Below, one piece after another: positions 7,907 to 50,706 of a DNA stretch of 64,000 nt. Both the position numbers and the translations under genes were made by a program. Position 1 is the stretch's first letter. Each line of letters starts with the position of its first letter. The stretch comes from Candidatus Thiodictyon syntrophicum (GTDB lineage Bacteria > Pseudomonadota > Gammaproteobacteria > Chromatiales > Chromatiaceae): assembly GCF_002813775.1 (NCBI RefSeq), contig NZ_CP020370.1:2815501-2879500 (forward strand), written 5' to 3'. The notes beneath the pieces were generated by a model. That model saw only the letters and a list, made by a program, of their open reading frames with translations. It ran no database searches and was not told the DNA's origin.

Positions 7907-10069
7907 TCAGCGGATGCGCACGCCGTCGACGGCGGTCGTCAGGTCGGCCATCGTGACCTGGACCACCAGGTCCTTCGGGTCCGACTCCTCGCCGATTGAG
8001 GCGACCGCTCGGCGCACGGCCGCGAGCGCGGCGCGGGCGCAGACGGCGGCGACCTCGGCCCCGCTGAATCCGGCACTCGCCTTCACCAGTGCCCCGATGT
8101 CGATCTCCCCGGTTACCGGCTTGCCCTTCAGGTGAACCTTGAAGATCTCCTGGCGCCCCTCGTCGTCCGGCAGCGGGATGCGGATGATTTCATCGAAACG
8201 TCCGGGCCGCAGGATCGCCGGGTCCAGCATGTCCGCCCGGTTGGTCGCGCCCAAGACCAGCACCCCGCGCAGGTCTTCGATCCCGTCCATCTCGGACAGG
8301 AACTGGCTTAAGACCCGCTCGCCGACCGGGTTGTCGCTGCCGCTGCCGCCACGGGCCGGGACCAGGGCGTCGATCTCATCGAAGAACATGATGCAGGGGG
8401 CGGCCTGACGGGCCTTGTGGAAGATCTCACGCACGCCGCGTTCGGATTCGCCCACATACTTGGACATCAGGGCCGGCCCCTTTACCGAGATCACGTTGAC
8501 CTGGGTCTCATTGGCGACCGCCTTGGCCAGCATGGTCTTGCCACAGCCGGGCGGGCCGTCCAGCAGGATGCCCTTGGGCGGGCGCACCCCGGCCTGCTCA
8601 AACAGGTGCGGGTACTTGAGCGGCCAGGTCACGGCCTCGCGCAGGAGTTCCTTGGTCTCGTGCAGGCCGCCCACGTCCTCCCATTTGACATTGGGGATCT
8701 CGACGAAGACCTCGCGGATGGCGGACGGCTCCACCTCATGCAGGGCGTCGAGGAAGTCGTCCATGCGCACTTCAAGCTGGGCCAGGCGCTCATAGGGCAC
8801 CGCGTCCAGGCCCAGGTCCAGTTCGGGCATCAGGCGGCGGAGGCAGCTCATCGCGGCCTCACGGCACAGTCCCTGCAAGTCCGCGCCCACGAAGCCGTGA
8901 GTCACGTCCGCCAGTTGGCGCATGCTGACGTCTTGGGCGAGCGGCATCCCGCGGCTGTGGATGTCCAGGATCTCCAGGCGGCCGTCCCGGTCCGGGATGG
9001 GGATCTCGATCTCCCGGTCGAAACGCCCGGGCCGGCGTAGCGCCGGGTCGATGCTGTTGGGGATGTTGGTGGCGGCGATGACGATCAGGTTCTGGCGCGC
9101 ATTGAGCCCGTCCATGAGGGCCAGCAACTGGGCCACCACGCGCTTCTCGACCTCGCCCAGGGTGCCTTCGCGCTTGGGGGCAATGGCGTCGATCTCGTCC
9201 AGGAAGATGATGCTCGGCCCCTTGGCCGCGGCCTCCTGGAAGATCTTGCGCAGGTGCGCCTCGCTCTCTCCGTAGAACTTGTGGATGATCTCCGGTCCGC
9301 TCACGGAGAAGAAGTTCGCCTCGGCCTCGGCGGCGATGGTGCGTGCGATCAGGGTCTTGCCGCATCCGGGCGGGCCGTACATCATCACCCCCTTGGGGGC
9401 GTCGATGCCGAGCCGGTCGAAGAGTTCCGGATAGCGCAGCGGCAGCTCGATCATCTCGCGGATGCGCTGGAGCTGGGGCTTCAAACCGCCGATGTCCTCG
9501 TAAGACACGGGATTGGGCCCGGCGTTGGCGGCCGCACCCTTCTGGCCCTTGGGTCCGCTGATCACCAGTTGGGTGGTCGGGTTGATGATGACGGTGCCGC
9601 GCGGGGCGGTGCCGACCACGCGGAAGTCGGTGGAGCGGCTGCCGAAGAGGGTTACCCGCACCCGGTCGCCCTCGCGCACCGGCAGGCCGTCGAGCAGGCT
9701 GCCGATGTAGGGCAGGTCGCGCTCGCTGGGGGTGACGGTGGTGGGGGCGAGCGTGATGCGCTCGGCCGGGGCGTGCTCCGTTACGCGCAGGAGCACGAAT
9801 TCATCGAGCCCGGCGCCGGCGTTGTCGCGGCTGATGCCATCGAGTTGCACCCGGCCCTGACCGCGGATCTCCTTGAAGGCCGGCAGTACCTTGGCCACCG
9901 CACGGCGCTTGCCCTCGACCTCCACGATGTCGCCGATGGCCACGCCCAGGCGGGCCATGTCGGCGGGGTCCATGCGCGCGAAGGCGCGCCCCACGTCCTT
10001 GCTCAGGGCCTCCGAGACCTTCAGCCTCAATTCGCCGTTGTCGCTCATCGGCTTACTCTTATGTGGCAT
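7907..10069 (-). CDS. Cdc48/VAT-type AAA+ ATPase, gas vesicle cluster
   Basis: 720 residues with the full Cdc48 (p97/VAT) architecture. The N-terminal double-psi barrel and Cdc48-2 region span residues ~10-190 (LKVSEALSKDVGRAFARMD at the start). AAA domain D1 spans ~205-440, with Walker A GPPGCGKT and Walker B IIFLDEIDAI. D2 spans ~470-720, with a second GPPGCGKT and IMFFDEIDAL. Arg-finger regions ATNIPNSIDPALRRPGRFD and ATNRADMLDPAILRPGRFD are intact. It is a hexameric unfoldase by family knowledge. It is the last gene of the gas vesicle operon; its ATG at 10069 overlaps the end of the Hsp20 gene, with an alternative start at 10048 (MSDNGELRL). A role in gas vesicle assembly or turnover is inferred from position only. 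Confidence 0.92.
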   Translation of the reverse strand: MPHKSKPMSDNGELRLKVSEALSKDVGRAFARMDPADMARLGVAIGDIVEVEGKRRAVAKVLPAFKEIRGQGRVQLDGISRDNAGAGLDEFVLLRVTEHAPAERITLAPTTVTPSERDLPYIGSLLDGLPVREGDRVRVTLFGSRSTDFRVVGTAPRGTVIINPTTQLVISGPKGQKGAAANAGPNPVSYEDIGGLKPQLQRIREMIELPLRYPELFDRLGIDAPKGVMMYGPPGCGKTLIARTIAAEAEANFFSVSGPEIIHKFYGESEAHLRKIFQEAAAKGPSIIFLDEIDAIAPKREGTLGEVEKRVVAQLLALMDGLNARQNLIVIAATNIPNSIDPALRRPGRFDREIEIPIPDRDGRLEILDIHSRGMPLAQDVSMRQLADVTHGFVGADLQGLCREAAMSCLRRLMPELDLGLDAVPYERLAQLEVRMDDFLDALHEVEPSAIREVFVEIPNVKWEDVGGLHETKELLREAVTWPLKYPHLFEQAGVRPPKGILLDGPPGCGKTMLAKAVANETQVNVISVKGPALMSKYVGESERGVREIFHKARQAAPCIMFFDEIDALVPARGGSGSDNPVGERVLSQFLSEMDGIEDLRGVLVLGATNRADMLDPAILRPGRFDEIIRIPLPDDEGRQEIFKVHLKGKPVTGEIDIGALVKASAGFSGAEVAAVCARAALAAVRRAVASIGEESDPKDLVVQVTMADLTTAVDGVRIR

Positions 10070-16455: not shown

Positions 16456-16674
16456 TCAGGCCGGCGCCGCCGCCGGGGCGGTGAGGCCAATCGCTTCGGC
16501 ATACTTCAGGTAGGTCTCAACCGAGGCGATGACCACACGGGCTTCCACGGCGAGCAGCTCGATACCGACGAGCGAGACCTTCAACCACGCATCAATCACG
16601 ATGCCCTTGTCCAGAATGCGGTCAACAACTTCGGCCAGGCTGGAGGAATCGGTGGAGTTGGCGACTTTTGCCAT
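16456..16674 (-). CDS. gvpA: Major gas vesicle shell protein GvpA
   Basis: 72 residues from the ATG at 16674, which has GAGG 8 bases upstream and gives the canonical start [20 protein letters not shown]; the frame opens earlier at 16704 but that extension is not GvpA-like. The core ([40 protein letters not shown]) is nearly textbook. GvpA polymerises into the rib-and-cone shell that keeps gas in and water out. It is the first gene of the operon, preceded by a sigma-54 promoter and followed by a stem-loop. Confidence 0.98.
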
Positions 16675-16868
16675 TTTCTTTACCCTCTGAGAGTGATTTG
16701 ACATGCACGTGATGTGCGCCGAAAGCGAACCTACCGGGCCTGGGTCACATTGCGCCTCCCTGCGCCCCCACCCCGCCGGGGGAGTCCCCTGATCCGCTTG
16801 ATACTGCCGGCGGGCTCAGGGCTTCCCGGTGTGGCATCCTGCCGACTCGGTCGCTTGATGGGTATAAA

Positions 16869-16883
16869 GCATCTGGCGTGCCA
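16869..16883 (-). promoter_or_regulatory. Sigma-54 (-24/-12) promoter of gvpA
   Basis: On the minus strand the sequence reads TGGCACGCCAGATGC. GG and GC are exactly 10 bases apart, and the -24 block TGGCACG is a perfect match to the sigma-54 consensus; the -12 block ATGC differs from TTGC at one base. Transcription would start near 16857, giving a ~180-base leader. An NtrC-type activator gene lies in the operon next door. Confidence 0.85.
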
Positions 16884-16989
16884 GAAGCAGGTTTCTTCGA
16901 CAGGGATTAATAACTCGTTAAAAAACAGACATCAATGCTCGTCAGGGAGGGCTGGTGGCGGCGTATCCAGGGGGCGGACCAGAGGCTTT

Positions 16990-17028
16990 TATGGAATGCG
17001 TTCCATAGCTCTGGCGTTGGCTCCATAG
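16990..17028 (-). promoter_or_regulatory. Possible activator-binding dyad upstream of gvpA
   Basis: TATGGAA-TGCG-TTCCATA at 16990-17007 is a perfect 7-bp dyad, with a further CTCCATAG half-site at 17021-17028. It is about 135-150 bp upstream of the predicted start site, the normal distance for an NtrC-family enhancer. The binding protein is inferred, not shown. Confidence 0.55.
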
Positions 17029-17125: not shown

Positions 17126-17235
17126 GACAGGATTAACAGGATTTTTCAGGATTGACAGGATTGCGAACGCGGCGAATCCAATCATCCGCACTCATCACAG
17201 TCCTGTTAATCCTGCGAAATGCTGTTAATCCTGTC
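17126..17235. repeat. Inverted AGGATT-type repeat pair
   Basis: GACAGGATTAACAGGATT... at 17126-17162 faces its approximate inverse (..CTGTTAATCC.., 17198-17235). Each arm is itself an iteration of CAGGATT. It lies between the 3' end of the regulatory operon and the gvpA promoter region and may insulate the two. Two other iterated inverted pairs of this kind are at 52647-52789 and 59675-59738. Confidence 0.8.
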
Positions 17236-17285: not shown

Positions 17286-17717
17286 TCAGTCCGTCCCGAT
17301 CGCCGCAATCCGGTCGATCAGGGCCAGGATCTCACCATGCAGGAAGGGCTTGGCGACGAAACCCTGAATCAGGCCGCTCTGCAGCGCCTGGTCGACGGCC
17401 GGGTCATCGGCGAAGAAATAGCCGGAGATCAGGACCACGAAGGGGTCACCCAGGAGATCGCGCAGGTGCTTGATCAGGACCATCCCCGACATGTCCGGGA
17501 GCTTGGCGTCGACAAAGACGGCGCGATAGGGGGTGTGGTGGCTGAGATCGATGGCCTCCTGGGCGCACAGTGCGTGATGCACCGGGAAGCCGCGGCGGGC
17601 AATCAGACGCCCCAGGATCCAGTTGATGTCGGGTTCGTCATCGACGGTGAGAAAGGCGGGAGCGATGCGGACGCCGGTGGCGCCGCCCGCTGCCGCTGAT
17701 TCGTCCGGACCTGACAT
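17286..17717 (-). CDS. Single-domain response regulator
   Basis: 143 residues: a CheY-like receiver after a ~20-residue polar leader. The acidic pair is in LTVDDEPDINWIL (about residue 26), the phosphorylated Asp in AVFVDAKLPDMSGM (about 70), and the conserved Lys in GFVAKPF (about 123). No output domain. It is the last gene of the regulatory operon, one base after the histidine kinase stop, so it may be a phosphate sink or intermediate for that kinase. Confidence 0.88.
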   Translation of the reverse strand: MSGPDESAAAGGATGVRIAPAFLTVDDEPDINWILGRLIARRGFPVHHALCAQEAIDLSHHTPYRAVFVDAKLPDMSGMVLIKHLRDLLGDPFVVLISGYFFADDPAVDQALQSGLIQGFVAKPFLHGEILALIDRIAAIGTD

Positions 17718-17718
17718 C

Positions 17719-19224
17719 CTAAGCCAGCGGTAAATGGACGACGAAGCAGGTGCCGATCCCGGGGGCGCTCTCTACCTCGATACGTCCATGGTGCTGTTGG
17801 ATGATCGAATAGCAGATGGACAGGCCCAGGCCGGTGCCCTTGCCGACCGGGGAGCGGGTATAGAAGGGGTCGAAGATCTTGCCGATGTCCGCGGCATCGA
17901 TCCCGACGCCGGTGTCGATCACATGCACCAGGACCTCGTCGCCGTCGCGATCCAGCGTCAGGGTGAGCAGGCCGCCATTGGGCATGGAGGCGATGGCGTT
18001 GAGCAGGATGTTGATGAACGCCTGCTCCAGCAGGCTCGGCACCCCGCGCACCCACAGGGGTTGCTCGCAAAACTGGGTCTCGACATCGAGCTGGTTGAGG
18101 TGGGCCTGATGGTTGACCACCGACAGGGCCTGGGTGAGCAGGGCGAGCGGGTCGACCCGGGTCATCTTGTCGCCGCCCGCGGGGCGGGCGAAGCGCAACA
18201 GGTTCTCGATGATCTCGGAGGCCTTGTGAACCCCGGCGATGGTCTTCTGCACACACTCGCGGCGCAAATCCGGTGCCAGGTCCTCATCCAGGAGGAACTG
18301 TGCGGCGGATGAGCAAACCGCCAAGGGGTTGCGGATCTCGTGGGCGATGCCGCCGGCCATCACGCCCAAGGCGGCGAGTTTCTGCGATTGGAGCAACTGG
18401 GCTTCCAGCCGGTGGCGTTCGGTCAGGTCGCGTCCGGCGGCGACCATGCCGGTGGTCTCACCGTCGGCATTGAGCATGGGTGCCAGGGTCCAGGACACCG
18501 CGATGCGCTCCTCCGACAGGGTGGTCAGGGCCCACTCTGCGGTCCGACTGGCGGCCATGGCGGGGCCGCCGCCCAAGGCCTGTTCAATCTCCGGCCGGTC
18601 CGCGGGGGCGAAGAACTCCGGCAGGCGCCGGCCGATCGCCTCGCACGCCTGATACCCGGTGAGCCGCTCTGCCGCCTTGTTCCAACTGAGGATGCGGCCG
18701 CGGTTGTCGGTCGAGAGCAGGATGTCGCTGGCGCTCTCCACCACGCTTGCGAGGTGGCGCTCCACCCGCTGGATATCCTGGCTCAAGCGCACCTGCTCGG
18801 TGATGTCTTCCATCAGGAACAGGGCGTATTGGACCTGATCGTTCCAGTTGAACGGCAGGGCGCGAAAGTAATAGGTCCGCATGGGCACGCCGGGGGCGCG
18901 GAAGGTCATGCGCTGGGAGGGGCTCTGCTCGTTGCGCTCGAAGACCCGGCGTACGCAGTCGAGGATGCGGGTGCGCTCCACGATGGTCGGCGGAAAGACG
19001 TCTTCAAAGCGATGGCCGATGGTATCGCGGGGCGTACGATTGCCCTTTTGCAGGAAGTTGCGATTAGCCATGGCGATGCGCAGGCGGCTGTCGACCAACA
19101 GGATCGATGACGGAATCGCATCGAACAGGGTACGAAACAGGTTCTCATAGGGTTCGCGGGCGTTGCCACCGTCCGCGAGGCCCGGTTCAAGCCAGGGACC
19201 GGAGGTCATCATCGATCGCTCCAA
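17719..19224 (-). CDS. PAS histidine kinase (NtrB-like)
   Basis: 501 residues, no membrane segments, so cytoplasmic. Two PAS domains span about residues 25-145 and 155-275 (SSILLVDSRLRIAMANRNF; DILLSTDNRGRILSWNKAAE). HisKA spans about 285-350 with H-box GGIAHEIRNPLA. The ATPase domain has N-box NILLNAIASM, G1 DTGVGID and G2 GTGLGLS. It is in one operon with an NtrC-type regulator and a stand-alone receiver, so it is likely the sensor that controls them. Redox or light sensing is only a guess, since no cofactor ligand is obvious. It overlaps the upstream GvpF/L gene by up to 38 bases; in-frame ATGs at 19212 and 19209 are alternative starts. Confidence 0.9.
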   Translation of the reverse strand: MERSMMTSGPWLEPGLADGGNAREPYENLFRTLFDAIPSSILLVDSRLRIAMANRNFLQKGNRTPRDTIGHRFEDVFPPTIVERTRILDCVRRVFERNEQSPSQRMTFRAPGVPMRTYYFRALPFNWNDQVQYALFLMEDITEQVRLSQDIQRVERHLASVVESASDILLSTDNRGRILSWNKAAERLTGYQACEAIGRRLPEFFAPADRPEIEQALGGGPAMAASRTAEWALTTLSEERIAVSWTLAPMLNADGETTGMVAAGRDLTERHRLEAQLLQSQKLAALGVMAGGIAHEIRNPLAVCSSAAQFLLDEDLAPDLRRECVQKTIAGVHKASEIIENLLRFARPAGGDKMTRVDPLALLTQALSVVNHQAHLNQLDVETQFCEQPLWVRGVPSLLEQAFINILLNAIASMPNGGLLTLTLDRDGDEVLVHVIDTGVGIDAADIGKIFDPFYTRSPVGKGTGLGLSICYSIIQQHHGRIEVESAPGIGTCFVVHLPLA

Positions 19225-19930
19225 CGAAGTTGTAGGGCGGCCAGGGGCCGGTGATCAGGCCTGACCCCGGGACCGCGGAGGGGTCCCGCCGCAACGCCTC
19301 CACGAAGGCCCCGCTCTGCTCGCGGGGGACCAGGAAATAGAGCGAGAGCAGGGAGCGCCCGCCGATCTGACCGAACTCCTGATGCAGATCACGGTAGAGT
19401 CCGGCCACGATCCGCTCGATCGCACCGCGTGCCTCAGCGGCCCGGGCGGCGGCGAGGGCCTCGTCGTCGAGGCGCCGCCGGATCACCGCCAGGTGGCCGT
19501 GACCGGGGCCGCGGTCCTTGAGTCCCTCGGCCTCCGGGGCGGGCCCGGGTGCCGCCGCCGTCGCGGTCGGCGACGCGGCCTTGGGGAGCATCAGACGGAT
19601 GCCGATCTCGACGCAATCGTCCAGATGATCCAGCATGGTCAGCAGCCGCGCCTGGTGTCCGGTGAGTAGTTTGCGTACCGCGGCATCGGAGGTGAAGACG
19701 CAGCCGAAGCGCATGGGGATCAGGGGCGCGTCACAGTGCAGGCACGCGATCAGGTCCGCGTAGCCCTGGAGTTGTGCGCTGTCCGCCGCACGGACCTGAT
19801 CCGGGTCCACGTCGGCGACGACCGCCCGCAGCCCGTCCACGCCGATCCCCCGCAGCCCCCCGGGCAGGGGCGCGCAGCGCGGCGGGTCGCGCAGGATGCA
19901 ATGGAGCATAGGACGCCTGCCGACCGTCAT
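19187..19930 (-). CDS. GvpF/GvpL family protein (second copy)
   Basis: 247 residues from the ATG at 19930, which overlaps the preceding stop as ATGA; the longer frame to 19942 is less likely. Family signs: MLHCILRD start, GLRAVVADVDPDQV, CDAPLIPMRFGCVFTSD, LDHLDDCVEIGIRL, and the end PGSGLITGPWPPYNFVGAI. A ~30-residue Ala/Pro/Thr insert sits mid-protein. Lying between a sigma-54 activator gene and a histidine kinase gene is unusual for a structural Gvp protein. Confidence 0.88.
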   Translation of the reverse strand: MTVGRRPMLHCILRDPPRCAPLPGGLRGIGVDGLRAVVADVDPDQVRAADSAQLQGYADLIACLHCDAPLIPMRFGCVFTSDAAVRKLLTGHQARLLTMLDHLDDCVEIGIRLMLPKAASPTATAAAPGPAPEAEGLKDRGPGHGHLAVIRRRLDDEALAAARAAEARGAIERIVAGLYRDLHQEFGQIGGRSLLSLYFLVPREQSGAFVEALRRDPSAVPGSGLITGPWPPYNFVGAIDDDLRSLA

Positions 19931-20691
19931 GGTGCCCCACAAAAGCTGTAGAGCGGCCAGGGTCCGGAGCAGTGCAGTTGCAGCCCGTCCTCCAGATAGG
20001 GGGCTTGGGCGCGCTCGATCGCCGCGTGCAGGGCCGCGGCACCGCCGGGGGCCACCAGGCAGGCCCAGTTGGCGACCGCCGGGTCGCGTGCGGGGCGGGT
20101 CATAACGGCCTCGCTGCAGCGGCGCAACTGCGGGTCCAGGTCCGCGATCACCGCGCTGAGCCAGGGGCCGATGGCACGCTGCGCCTCCACCTTGCGCCGT
20201 TGCTGCTCAAGATAGCCGCGACCGCCGACGATGGTGTCCGCGGCGTCCGCAAAGCCTTCGCGCAGGCGCGCCGCCGTGGCCTGGTCGCGGTCCAGCAGGG
20301 CCTTGACCGCCCATTCTTCGCGCCCCGGCATGCGGGCGAAGAAGTCGAGCAGGGTGTGGCGGCGACGGGCGGCCTCCAGGGCCAGGGCCCCGACGGAGGA
20401 GAACAGGGTGCCGAAGGGGAGGGGGAAGACCGTGGTGGCGGACATCGCGCGCGTGATGACCAGATCGTGGGCCTCGACCCGCGGCAGCAGCCACTTGAGG
20501 TCGGCCAGGCGCTCCTCCGCCTGCGCGCCCGCGAAGCGCTCCGCGGGGCAGTCACTCAAGACCGCCTTCAGCCCTGCCGCGGCGCCGATGTAGACCGGCT
20601 CCTCCCAACCACAGTCGCCGAGCCCCAAAGCGGCCGCCTGATCGATCTGAAGTGAGGCCGGCGCGAAACAGAACGCGTAAATCGCGCGCAT
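19927..20691 (-). CDS. GvpF/GvpL family protein (third copy)
   Basis: 254 residues. Hallmarks are MRAIYAFCFAPASLQID at the start, VYIGAAAGLKAVLSD, FPLPFGTLFSSVGAL, and the C-terminal LQLHCSGPWPLYSFCGAP. It is more divergent than the operon copy at 12907. It lies between the NtrC-type regulator (21 bases away) and the second GvpF/L copy (ATGA overlap). Confidence 0.87.
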   Translation of the reverse strand: MRAIYAFCFAPASLQIDQAAALGLGDCGWEEPVYIGAAAGLKAVLSDCPAERFAGAQAEERLADLKWLLPRVEAHDLVITRAMSATTVFPLPFGTLFSSVGALALEAARRRHTLLDFFARMPGREEWAVKALLDRDQATAARLREGFADAADTIVGGRGYLEQQRRKVEAQRAIGPWLSAVIADLDPQLRRCSEAVMTRPARDPAVANWACLVAPGGAAALHAAIERAQAPYLEDGLQLHCSGPWPLYSFCGAP

Positions 20692-20712: not shown

Positions 20713-22098
20713 TTAGGCGCTCAATCCGTAGGTCTTGAGCTTCGTATGGACCGTCTTATAGTCCACTTGGAGCATACGCGCAACCGCCGCCTTGTTCCCG
20801 CGCGAGCGCTGCAGGGCCTCGAACAACACCTGGCGCTCCACGTCCGCCATGCGCGTGCGCACAATCTCCTTCAGCGACAGACCCGTTTGGTAAACCACGT
20901 TGTCGGCCGCCGTCGGCGTGCGCTCGGGCCCGGCGTCCGGCAGTGCCAGGTGGTGGGTATCGATCGTGAAGTTTGCGATCAGCACCGCCCGGCGGACGAT
21001 GCTGCGCAACTGGCGCACATTCCCCGGCCAGTGGTAGGCGAGCAGGGCCGCCGCGGCCTCCTCGGTGAAACTGCCGACCTGCTTGCCCAGTTCCCGATTG
21101 GCCTCGGCGAGGAACTGCGCGGCGATGTGCAGGATATCCTGGGCGCGGGCGCGCAGGGGCGGGACCGCCACGCGGTAGTCGCACAGGCGGTAGAGCAGGT
21201 CCTCGCGGAAGGTCCCCTTGCTGACCGCCTCAGTCAGGTCCTGGTTGCTGGCCGAGATCAGCCGCACGTCCACCGGGACCGGCTTGGTTCCGCCGACGCG
21301 GTAAATGACCCGCTCCTGGAGTACACGCAACAGTCGCGCCTGCGCGGACCAGGCCAGGTTGCCGATCTCGTCGAGCAACAGGGTCCCGCCATGGGCGGCC
21401 TCGAACTTGCCCGGCTGTTGCCGCTCCGCGCCGGTGAAGGCGCCGCGCTCATGGCCGAACAATTCGTTTTCGATCAAGGTGTCAGGGATGGTGCCGCAAT
21501 CCACGGCGACGAAGGGATGACTGGCGCGGGGGCTGAGATCATGAATGGCGCGGGCCACCACCTCCTTGCCCGCGCCGGTCTCACCGAACAGGCTCACGGC
21601 GAAATTCGTCGGCGCCACCCGTTCCACGTCCTCGATCGTGCGCGTGATCGCCGGGCTGGTCCCCATCCGGGCGCGCAATCCGAGCGTGGCGCTCGGGATC
21701 ATGGGGGCCTGCTGACGGCACGCCAAGGCCTCGCGCACCTTGTTCAGCAAGCCTTGGTTGTCGAAGGGCTTGGAGAGATAATCAAAGGCGCCTTCTTTGA
21801 TGGCGACCACCGCCCCGGCCAGATCCGCGAAGCCGGTCAACAGGATAACCGGCAGGTGGGGGCTCGCGACCTTGAGTCGGCGCAGGAGATCCAGCCCCGT
21901 CATGTCCGGCAGCCGATAGTCCAGGATGGCCAGGCGCGGACCGCAGGTGCGGGCCAGACACAGACCCTCGCCGGCGTCCTGCGCGGTGATGACCCGAAAG
22001 CCGGCGCGCTGCAGTACCAGTTGGAGGATGCGGCGCATACTCTCGTCATCATCCACGACCAGGATAACGTCTGACGACTCGCTCATTTCCCCGTTCAT
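20713..22098 (-). CDS. NtrC-family sigma-54 response regulator
   Basis: 461 residues. Receiver at residues ~10-125: acidic cluster VVDDDES, phospho-Asp in LAILDYRLPDMTG, Lys in DYLSKPF. Sigma-54 AAA+ domain at ~140-375: Walker A GETGAGKE, GAFTGA loop in ELFGHERGAFTGAERQ, Walker B TLLLDEIG, and NVRQL. Fis-type DNA-binding helix at ~420-461: RGNKAAVARMLQVDYKTVH. All parts needed for an active, phosphorylation-controlled enhancer-binding protein are present. It heads the operon with two GvpF/L genes and the kinase, and a sigma-54 promoter lies in front of gvpA, so gvpA is its probable target. In-frame start at 22098; MSESSD at 22086 is an alternative. Confidence 0.93.
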   Translation of the reverse strand: MNGEMSESSDVILVVDDDESMRRILQLVLQRAGFRVITAQDAGEGLCLARTCGPRLAILDYRLPDMTGLDLLRRLKVASPHLPVILLTGFADLAGAVVAIKEGAFDYLSKPFDNQGLLNKVREALACRQQAPMIPSATLGLRARMGTSPAITRTIEDVERVAPTNFAVSLFGETGAGKEVVARAIHDLSPRASHPFVAVDCGTIPDTLIENELFGHERGAFTGAERQQPGKFEAAHGGTLLLDEIGNLAWSAQARLLRVLQERVIYRVGGTKPVPVDVRLISASNQDLTEAVSKGTFREDLLYRLCDYRVAVPPLRARAQDILHIAAQFLAEANRELGKQVGSFTEEAAAALLAYHWPGNVRQLRSIVRRAVLIANFTIDTHHLALPDAGPERTPTAADNVVYQTGLSLKEIVRTRMADVERQVLFEALQRSRGNKAAVARMLQVDYKTVHTKLKTYGLSA

Positions 22099-50488: not shown

Positions 50489-50706
50489 TTCTTATCAGCC
50501 CACCAGAAATCGCCTCCGGCTTGCCCGCATGGAAGGCCTTCCTTGTCCGGCTGGACGCGAAGCCGTTGCCCGAAGACCAAGGATGGCGCAAGGCCAGGGC
50601 TGATGCGGTCGACAACATCGCATGGTTCGAGTCGTTGCCACCAGACGCGCCCGCGTGGCTACGGCTGGGGCCGACCGCGGTCGCGCCATTTAAGGGTGGA
50701 GTATGA
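50485..50706 (+). CDS. Small protein, phage remnant region
   Basis: 73 residues: MILISPPEIASGLPAWKAFL, RLDAKPLPEDQGWRKARADA, NIAWFESLPPDAPAWLRLGP. Coupled by ATGA overlaps on both sides. No family recognised. Confidence 0.5.
   Translation: MILISPPEIASGLPAWKAFLVRLDAKPLPEDQGWRKARADAVDNIAWFESLPPDAPAWLRLGPTAVAPFKGGV

Follow-up and report, generated by a model that had tools for sequence, protein, structure and literature searches.

A tandem operator and a sigma-54 promoter upstream of gvpA in Candidatus Thiodictyon syntrophicum: a predicted enhancer for the NtrC-type activator GvrA

The gas vesicle locus and its regulatory operon

The window analysed here, a 64-kb stretch of the genome of Candidatus Thiodictyon syntrophicum, contains a gas vesicle cluster in which a regulatory operon, spanning window positions 22098 to 17286, lies upstream of the structural gene gvpA on the same strand. 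A preliminary description of this DNA had placed an NtrC-type activator with an intact GAFTGA loop and a PAS kinase in this neighbouring operon; both were recovered by Pfam, and a lone receiver protein, gvrC, stands beside them. The genes of the operon are the following.

20713-22098, minus strand: gvrA, NtrC-type activator with a receiver, a sigma-54 AAA+ domain carrying GAFTGA and a Fis-type HTH (Pfam)
19927-20691, minus strand: GvpL/GvpF family gas vesicle gene within the regulatory operon (Pfam 5.1e-40)
19187-19942, minus strand: second GvpL/GvpF family gene (Pfam 4.4e-33)
17719-19224, minus strand: gvrB, PAS histidine kinase (Pfam PAS_4, HisKA, HATPase_c)
17286-17717, minus strand: gvrC, single-domain response regulator (Pfam Response_reg 1.1e-14)

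The domains of the activator and the gene order (gvrA, the GvpF genes, kinase, receiver) are those of a Serratia-type operon. GvrA occurs once in the genome, and RpoN likewise gives a single match. The gas vesicle cluster is closed by a CDC48-type AAA ATPase (7907-10069), which occupies the same place in Methylosinus sp. C49.

Control of gas vesicles by such an operon is established in Serratia sp. ATCC 39006. There the NtrC-like GvrA controls gvpA1, whose mapped start follows a sigma-54 consensus and whose full expression depends on gvrA, gvrB and gvrC (PMC4982088); an rpoN mutant is reported, citing a thesis, to make no gas vesicles, GvrA being proposed to open the promoter complex (PMC11778176). 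Low oxygen raises gvpA1 transcription there (PMC6617781). For Thiodictyon syntrophicum Cad16T itself, published work already reports GvrA and GvrC homologues, names THSYN_11850 as the GvrA homologue and counts five GvpA genes (PMC5944118). The earlier suggestion that this control mode is not standard for gas vesicles is thus not supported, in view of the Serratia precedent (PMC4982088, PMC11778176).

Promoter, tandem operator and leader of gvpA

Between the end of gvrC, about 610 bp upstream on the same strand, and the gvpA coding region, a series of features was delimited, which are listed here in the direction of transcription together with gvpA itself.

17009-17028, minus strand: operator site 1, promoter-distal and weaker, CTATGGAGCCAACGCCAGAG (12 of 16 positions, second-best in the window)
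16989-17008, minus strand: operator site 2, promoter-proximal and strong, the dyad CTATGGAACGCATTCCATAA (15 of 16 positions, best in the window)
16918-16936, minus strand: A+T-rich block, weakly conserved, between operator and promoter (alignment block TG.T.TT)
16869-16883, minus strand: sigma-54 -24/-12 element TGGCACG-CCAG-ATGC, TGGCACGCCAGATGC, conserved and with exact GG-N10-GC spacing
16857, minus strand: predicted gvpA transcription start, 12 nt past the -12 C, from sigma-54 promoter geometry
16827-16857, minus strand: conserved leader start, CAAGCGACCGAGTCGGCAGGATGCCACACCG (first 25 bases with identity 0.93 among the genome's own four copies and 0.84 among 21 sequences)
16833-16843, minus strand: GGC-AGGAY-GCC hairpin in the leader (stem intact in all but 2 of 21, which have one broken pair)
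16704-16719, minus strand: second conserved leader block, GCGCACATCACGTGCA, with a GCAC/GTGC hairpin (alignment of 21)
16456-16674, minus strand: gvpA, encoding the gas vesicle structural protein (ATG at 16674, 72 aa; Pfam Gas_vesicle 2.6e-16)

A sigma-54 site had been described about 195 bases before the gvpA ATG, and it is indeed found there: the ATG, at 16672-16674, lies 209 bp downstream of the first T of the -24 and 195 bp downstream of the -12 C, and the GG-N10-GC core stands in a conserved TGGCAC/TGC context. All motif scores were computed against general consensus sequences. With two or fewer mismatches allowed, the sigma-54 pattern matches 69 times in the window against 72.5 expected, a chance level at which the -24/-12 match by itself proves nothing, and a better match, with no mismatch, sits inside the kinase gene at 18264-18278. 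This frequency would fit a reading in which both the -24/-12 element and the dyad are accidental and gvpA transcription comes from a sigma-70 promoter or runs on from the gvr operon, as would the proximity of gvrC on the same strand and a weak sigma-70-like match (9 of 12) on the gvpA strand at 17181-17209, between gvrC and the gvpA promoter. We regard this as very improbable, since the elements are conserved amid near-random spacers and the other gvpA copies of the genome share the module; GvrA being single in the genome, no gvr operon precedes those copies. A chance origin of operator and promoter was rejected on the ground of their conservation.

The operator was scored over 16 positions against CTATGGAA-N4-TTCCATAG at every position of the window, and it is recognized as a tandem pair because the two top-scoring positions are exactly 20 bp apart. 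Its strong site contains a perfect dyad, TATGGAA-CGCA-TTCCATA (16990-17007), which is the sole exact match in the window, one further match with 3 mismatches lying at 50528. The preliminary description had correctly noted this dyad, while its distance of 135-150 bp is valid only when counted from the predicted start near 16857, the actual distance from the -24 T being 107-124 bp, and the second site at 17009-17028 had been overlooked. Upstream of gvrA there is no operator within 3 mismatches that would indicate autoregulation.

In the usual NtrC-type enhancer, palindromes stand in tandem at a set distance before a -24/-12 promoter, and enhancers like that of glnA have two dimer sites about 100-140 bp from the start site of a sigma-54 promoter. 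The gvpA region resembles these in having a sigma-54 -24/-12 element and two predicted dimer sites, paired and palindromic with a fixed spacing, at an upstream distance within the 80-200 bp or so expected of such enhancers, and differs from them in the CTATGGAA-N4-TTCCATAG sequence with its 20-bp spacing, which is found mainly at gvpA promoters in the genomes searched. In a test on 45 upstream regions, 10 of which have a main site scoring below 12 and stand outside the comparison, the best partner site was exactly 20 bp away in 28 of the 35 promoters with a main site of at least 12 (26 upstream, 2 downstream). The non-family loci included in this test were 13 of the 35 that had been scored for operator and promoter, picked for GvrA, an operator or a sigma-54 site. 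Shuffled controls, for this test and for the scoring of operators and promoters, were first-order Markov resamples.

The A+T-rich block at 16918-16936, with an identity of 0.45-0.53 against 0.33-0.35 for the spacers, is a possible IHF bend site, judged by the IHF consensus. Farther upstream, between gvrC and the operator, lies a 106-base imperfect inverted repeat of AGGATTAACAGGATT units (17128-17233); with 82 matches in the genome, often on both strands of one place, it is a dispersed hairpin repeat, and a sub-threshold Rfam match to MIR5020 is taken as an artefact.

From the predicted start site the gvpA transcript would carry a leader of about 183 nt, whose first block, CAAGCGACCGAG-CGGCAGGA-GCC, is the most conserved stretch of the whole region. 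The hairpin at 16833-16843 resembles a CsrA/RsmA site; in the GCGCACATCACGTGCA hairpin three of four pairs are invariant and the fourth is GC in 19 and GU in 2 of the 21 sequences. A structured RNA family was considered and rejected: the fold of the 196-nt strand gives a z of -0.96, with 30 of 200 shuffles as good, and the alignment shows hardly any covariation (2 of 13 pairs, covariation term +0.12), so that the leader is claimed only as a conserved sequence with two short, nearly invariant hairpins. One could suppose that this leader is the main point of control, for example through CsrA/RsmA acting on the GGC-AGGAY-GCC hairpin of a constitutive transcript, an idea favoured by the strong conservation of the leader start, by the presence of a CsrA gene in the genome and by the effect of RsmA on Serratia gas vesicles (PMC6617781). 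It leaves the operator and its link to GvrA unexplained, however, the fold is no better than shuffles, and in Serratia RsmA is described as a positive regulator of the gvrA operon (PMC6617781); we give it hardly any weight. Leader control as an added layer is possible.

The module in the genome, the family and beyond

Six genes of the genome have a Gas_vesicle domain, four of them structural gvpA. All four gvpA copies have a sigma-54 element 207-210 bp and a dyad 330-334 bp before the ATG, operator site 2 being kept in each, and among their promoters mean pairwise identity is 0.78-0.79 for the operator sites, 0.81 for the -24/-12 element and 0.93 for the leader start, while the two spacers are near-random at 0.33-0.35. 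Sites of the form TGGAA-N4-TTCCA number 11 in the genome against 9 for the reversed control pattern, and five of the 11 have a sigma-54 site of 11/12 at 109-112 bp; among the other six, only L062 has such a site within 400 bp (9/12, at 269 bp). For two of the three gvpA copies outside the window the next gene resembles the one after the window gvpA. The copy at C1:4496k also has a gvpN-like gene downstream, and the published annotation places a GvpFL gene nearby by locus-tag number (PMC5944118), so that this copy probably heads a partial second gas vesicle cluster and does not stand alone.

A fifth full module lies on pTs485 (G000:C3, 373150-373279), with a 16/16 dyad, TGGCACGCTCCGTGCT at +110 and the same leader start, and it precedes not gvpA but an 80-codon gene (locus L066, 373150-373632). 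G107 has two further examples of this arrangement and G035 has one (L121, L130, L160), the sigma-54 element of L130 and L160 reaching only 9/12. A search of 16 genomes gave 12 places with a relative of the small protein, spread over 6 of them; one of the 12 is marginal (E about 0.01) and has an internal stop. The module is directly upstream at four of the 12, and the locus G142:C188 lies behind a gvpA that carries the module; none of the other seven has an operator scoring 12 or higher in the surrounding 3 kb or so, and the module therefore does not belong to this protein family as a whole. No Pfam family matches the small protein at E up to 1. When the three closest copies are compared, third positions hold only a mild excess of the codon differences (11, 15 and 14, against 5-13 elsewhere), nonsynonymous codons exceed synonymous ones (11:7, 19:12, 16:10), and constraint on a protein is accordingly weakly supported.

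Among 146 genomes of the family, PF00741 is present in 15, the own genome included. GvrA orthologues (E up to 1e-100) occur in 12 of the 16 genomes searched; of the four lacking it, G059, G093 and G115 have gvpA and G079 has none. Lack of conservation in relatives had been named beforehand as what would refute the promoter and the dyad, and the comparison came out in their favour: 27 of 28 gvpA upstream regions from the 12 GvrA-bearing genomes carry both an operator of at least 12/16 and a sigma-54 element of at least 10/12, the sole exception being a divergent gvpA copy (L050, G142:C309) without operator, sigma-54 element or leader. Left out of these counts were L025 (57 bp of upstream DNA only, same gene as L044), two inner tandem gvpA copies of G128, and L081, L106, L107, L109, L113 and L114 (duplicates or too little upstream DNA); the main gvpA of G107 (L116) is not among the 28 either. 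Operator and -24 are 124-128 bp apart in 23 of the 27 and 137, 139, 156 and 280 bp apart in the rest. In the three gvpA genomes without GvrA no operator was found (best 11, 9 and 9 of 16), and one of their loci, L055, has a sigma-54-like site of 10/12. A composite pattern (the dyad, 94-123 bases, TGGCA), searched in all 146 genomes, gave 22 matches in eight genomes against one for the reversed control; 20 fall in six gas-vesicle genomes, 17 before gvpA and three before the small gene, and the last two come from genomes that gave no Gas_vesicle match. In one genus group (L076, L077, L078) the GvrA loop reads GAFTSA in place of GAFTGA, and several other relatives have GAYTGA.

Outside the family, at least 34 loci were surveyed on contigs found with GvpA; among those without GAFTGA, GvrA was sought by BLAST in some, the others being screened for GAFTGA only. 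Among the matches listed, operator and sigma-54 site together stand before gvpA in one Desulfobacterales, two Desulfomonile, one Desulfarculus and one Phycisphaerales contig, all of them MAG contigs of Desulfobacterota and Planctomycetota, with operator-promoter distances of 159 bp, 377 and 215 bp, 137 bp and 140 bp, respectively, a wider scatter than within the family. A Methylumidiphilus contig has the operator with a GT-variant element, TGGCATGTAAGTTGT, judged by eye. Of 11 non-family GvrA loci among the matches listed (L082, L083, L084, L086, L088, L094, L096, L102, L140, L142, L156), ten have a sigma-54-like site of at least 9/12 and five an operator of at least 12/16, so that GvrA and sigma-54 co-occur more widely than the operator does. 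At L102, a GvrA orthologue accompanies a weak operator (12/16) with no sigma-54 site within 300 bp, and L156 (G281) has two diverged dyads, ATATGGAATTGCGTTCC and CTATGGATTCCGATTCCA, whose spacer is one base longer and which are offset by 24 bp, before a 12/12 sigma-54 site. A sigma-54-like site is also present at L109 (Nitrospirae), and the gvpA of the alphaproteobacterium Octadecabacter has neither GvrA nor a sigma-54 site that could be seen.

The distribution bears on whether the dyad might belong to another protein, for instance a repressor or an oxygen or light regulator, with GvrA acting elsewhere or without a specific enhancer. Five of the 11 GvrA loci, from Terriglobia, Acidobacteria, Anaeromyxobacter, Methylosinus and Methylocella (where the GvrA match is partial), have a sigma-54-like site and no recognizable operator, and a sixth, L156, has only its diverged pair, which makes the operator less than universal for GvrA, and on two operator-bearing contigs (L085, L087) no GvrA was found in the contig DNA examined; both observations lean towards another binder. 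Within the family, on the other hand, the operator is present with GvrA in 12 genomes and absent without it in three, tandem palindromes at a fixed distance are the usual form of an NtrC-type enhancer, and L026, L028 and L030 keep a distance of 127 bp from operator to promoter even though their leader is about 60 nt long as against 185. We therefore think another binder unlikely. The Fis-type helix of GvrA is alike in most loci (NKA..AR.L..DYKT); a recognition-helix rule for the operator was rejected, the variable part failing to separate operator-bearing family members (DYKTVHTK, DYKTIHNK, DYKTIYNK) from the operator-less L084 (DYKTIHTK).

The proposed mechanism and its reach

Taking these elements with their spacing, conservation and co-occurrence with GvrA, all of which are plain in the DNA, we infer, with a probability of about 0.87, that gvpA has an enhancer and a sigma-54 promoter, and that GvrA binds the tandem operator and opens the promoter; the binder, its phosphorylation, looping, the part of IHF and the start site are predictions. 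In this mechanism, the GvrB kinase would phosphorylate GvrA, possibly with GvrC as an extra receiver, and phosphorylated GvrA would bind as two adjacent dimers to the two copies of CTATGGAA-N4-TTCCATAG, 20 bp apart. GvrA would then loop over about 120 bp, perhaps with IHF, to RNA polymerase-sigma54 at TGGCACG-N4-ATGC, where its ATP hydrolysis would open the promoter, giving a transcript that starts near 16857 and runs through the conserved leader into gvpA. Of the preliminary description's two-component, sigma-54 control of gvpA, the mechanism is thus well supported by conservation in paralogues and relatives, and its novelty is not supported.

What seems to be new is the operator, the fact that the genome uses it several times, and its occurrence in distantly related bacteria. 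No operator for GvrA was found in the open literature, to which the search was confined, and looking for the word 'enhancer' in PMC4982088, PMC5601083, PMC11778176 and PMC6617781 gave no match; a dispersed five-promoter regulon that includes a non-gvp small gene, and a conserved 5' leader, were likewise not found in the open literature. Serratia 39006 and Thiodictyon are alike in their two-operon plan, in which one operon combines GvpF genes with the NtrC-type GvrA, a kinase and a receiver, and in the sigma-54 consensus before gvpA. Thiodictyon differs in that its enhancer sequence is identified by conservation, in its predicted leader, in its four gvpA copies and non-gvp target, each with its own module, and in its regulatory operon, where 22 bp separate gvrA from the first gvpF gene, with neither gvpH nor gvpZ in between as in Serratia. 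In Cereibacter sphaeroides, CtrA is reported to control gas vesicle genes (PMC11999139); this likeness, drawn from the literature alone, lies in phosphorelay-based transcriptional control of gvp genes, the regulator being CtrA there and GvrA in Thiodictyon.

Since three more gvpA copies and the small non-gvp gene on pTs485 are each preceded by this module, GvrA would drive a dispersed regulon. A wider and more tentative reading, for which the chances are close to even, is that the operator code read by GvrA is ancient and has been retained or passed on together with gas vesicle genes across phyla, and that in Thiodictyon and Lamprocystis this code serves a dispersed regulon of extra gvpA copies, each with its own enhancer, promoter and leader, together with a family of proteins of about 80 residues, distinct from the known gas vesicle genes, whose members in three species have the enhancer, promoter and leader start. 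If this is true, the small protein would count as a new factor associated with flotation, and post-transcriptional control through the leader would be added. With the operator, a control mode known from one enterobacterium becomes a readable DNA code: sequence by itself allows a prediction of the relatives in which GvrA switches flotation and of further genes that may join. The operator also supplies defined DNA with which binding can be tested and GvrA-responsive gas vesicle constructs built. From the dispersed gvpA copies it would seem that this lake-dwelling phototroph raises its gas vesicle yield by gene dosage under one regulator.

At one of these copies (L007, G000:C1:3676166), a plus-strand 12/12 sigma-54 consensus, TGGCACGGGCATTGCT, faces away from gvpA, 316 bp across the same operator and towards a short gene and a histidine kinase-like gene; it is a possible further target of GvrA.
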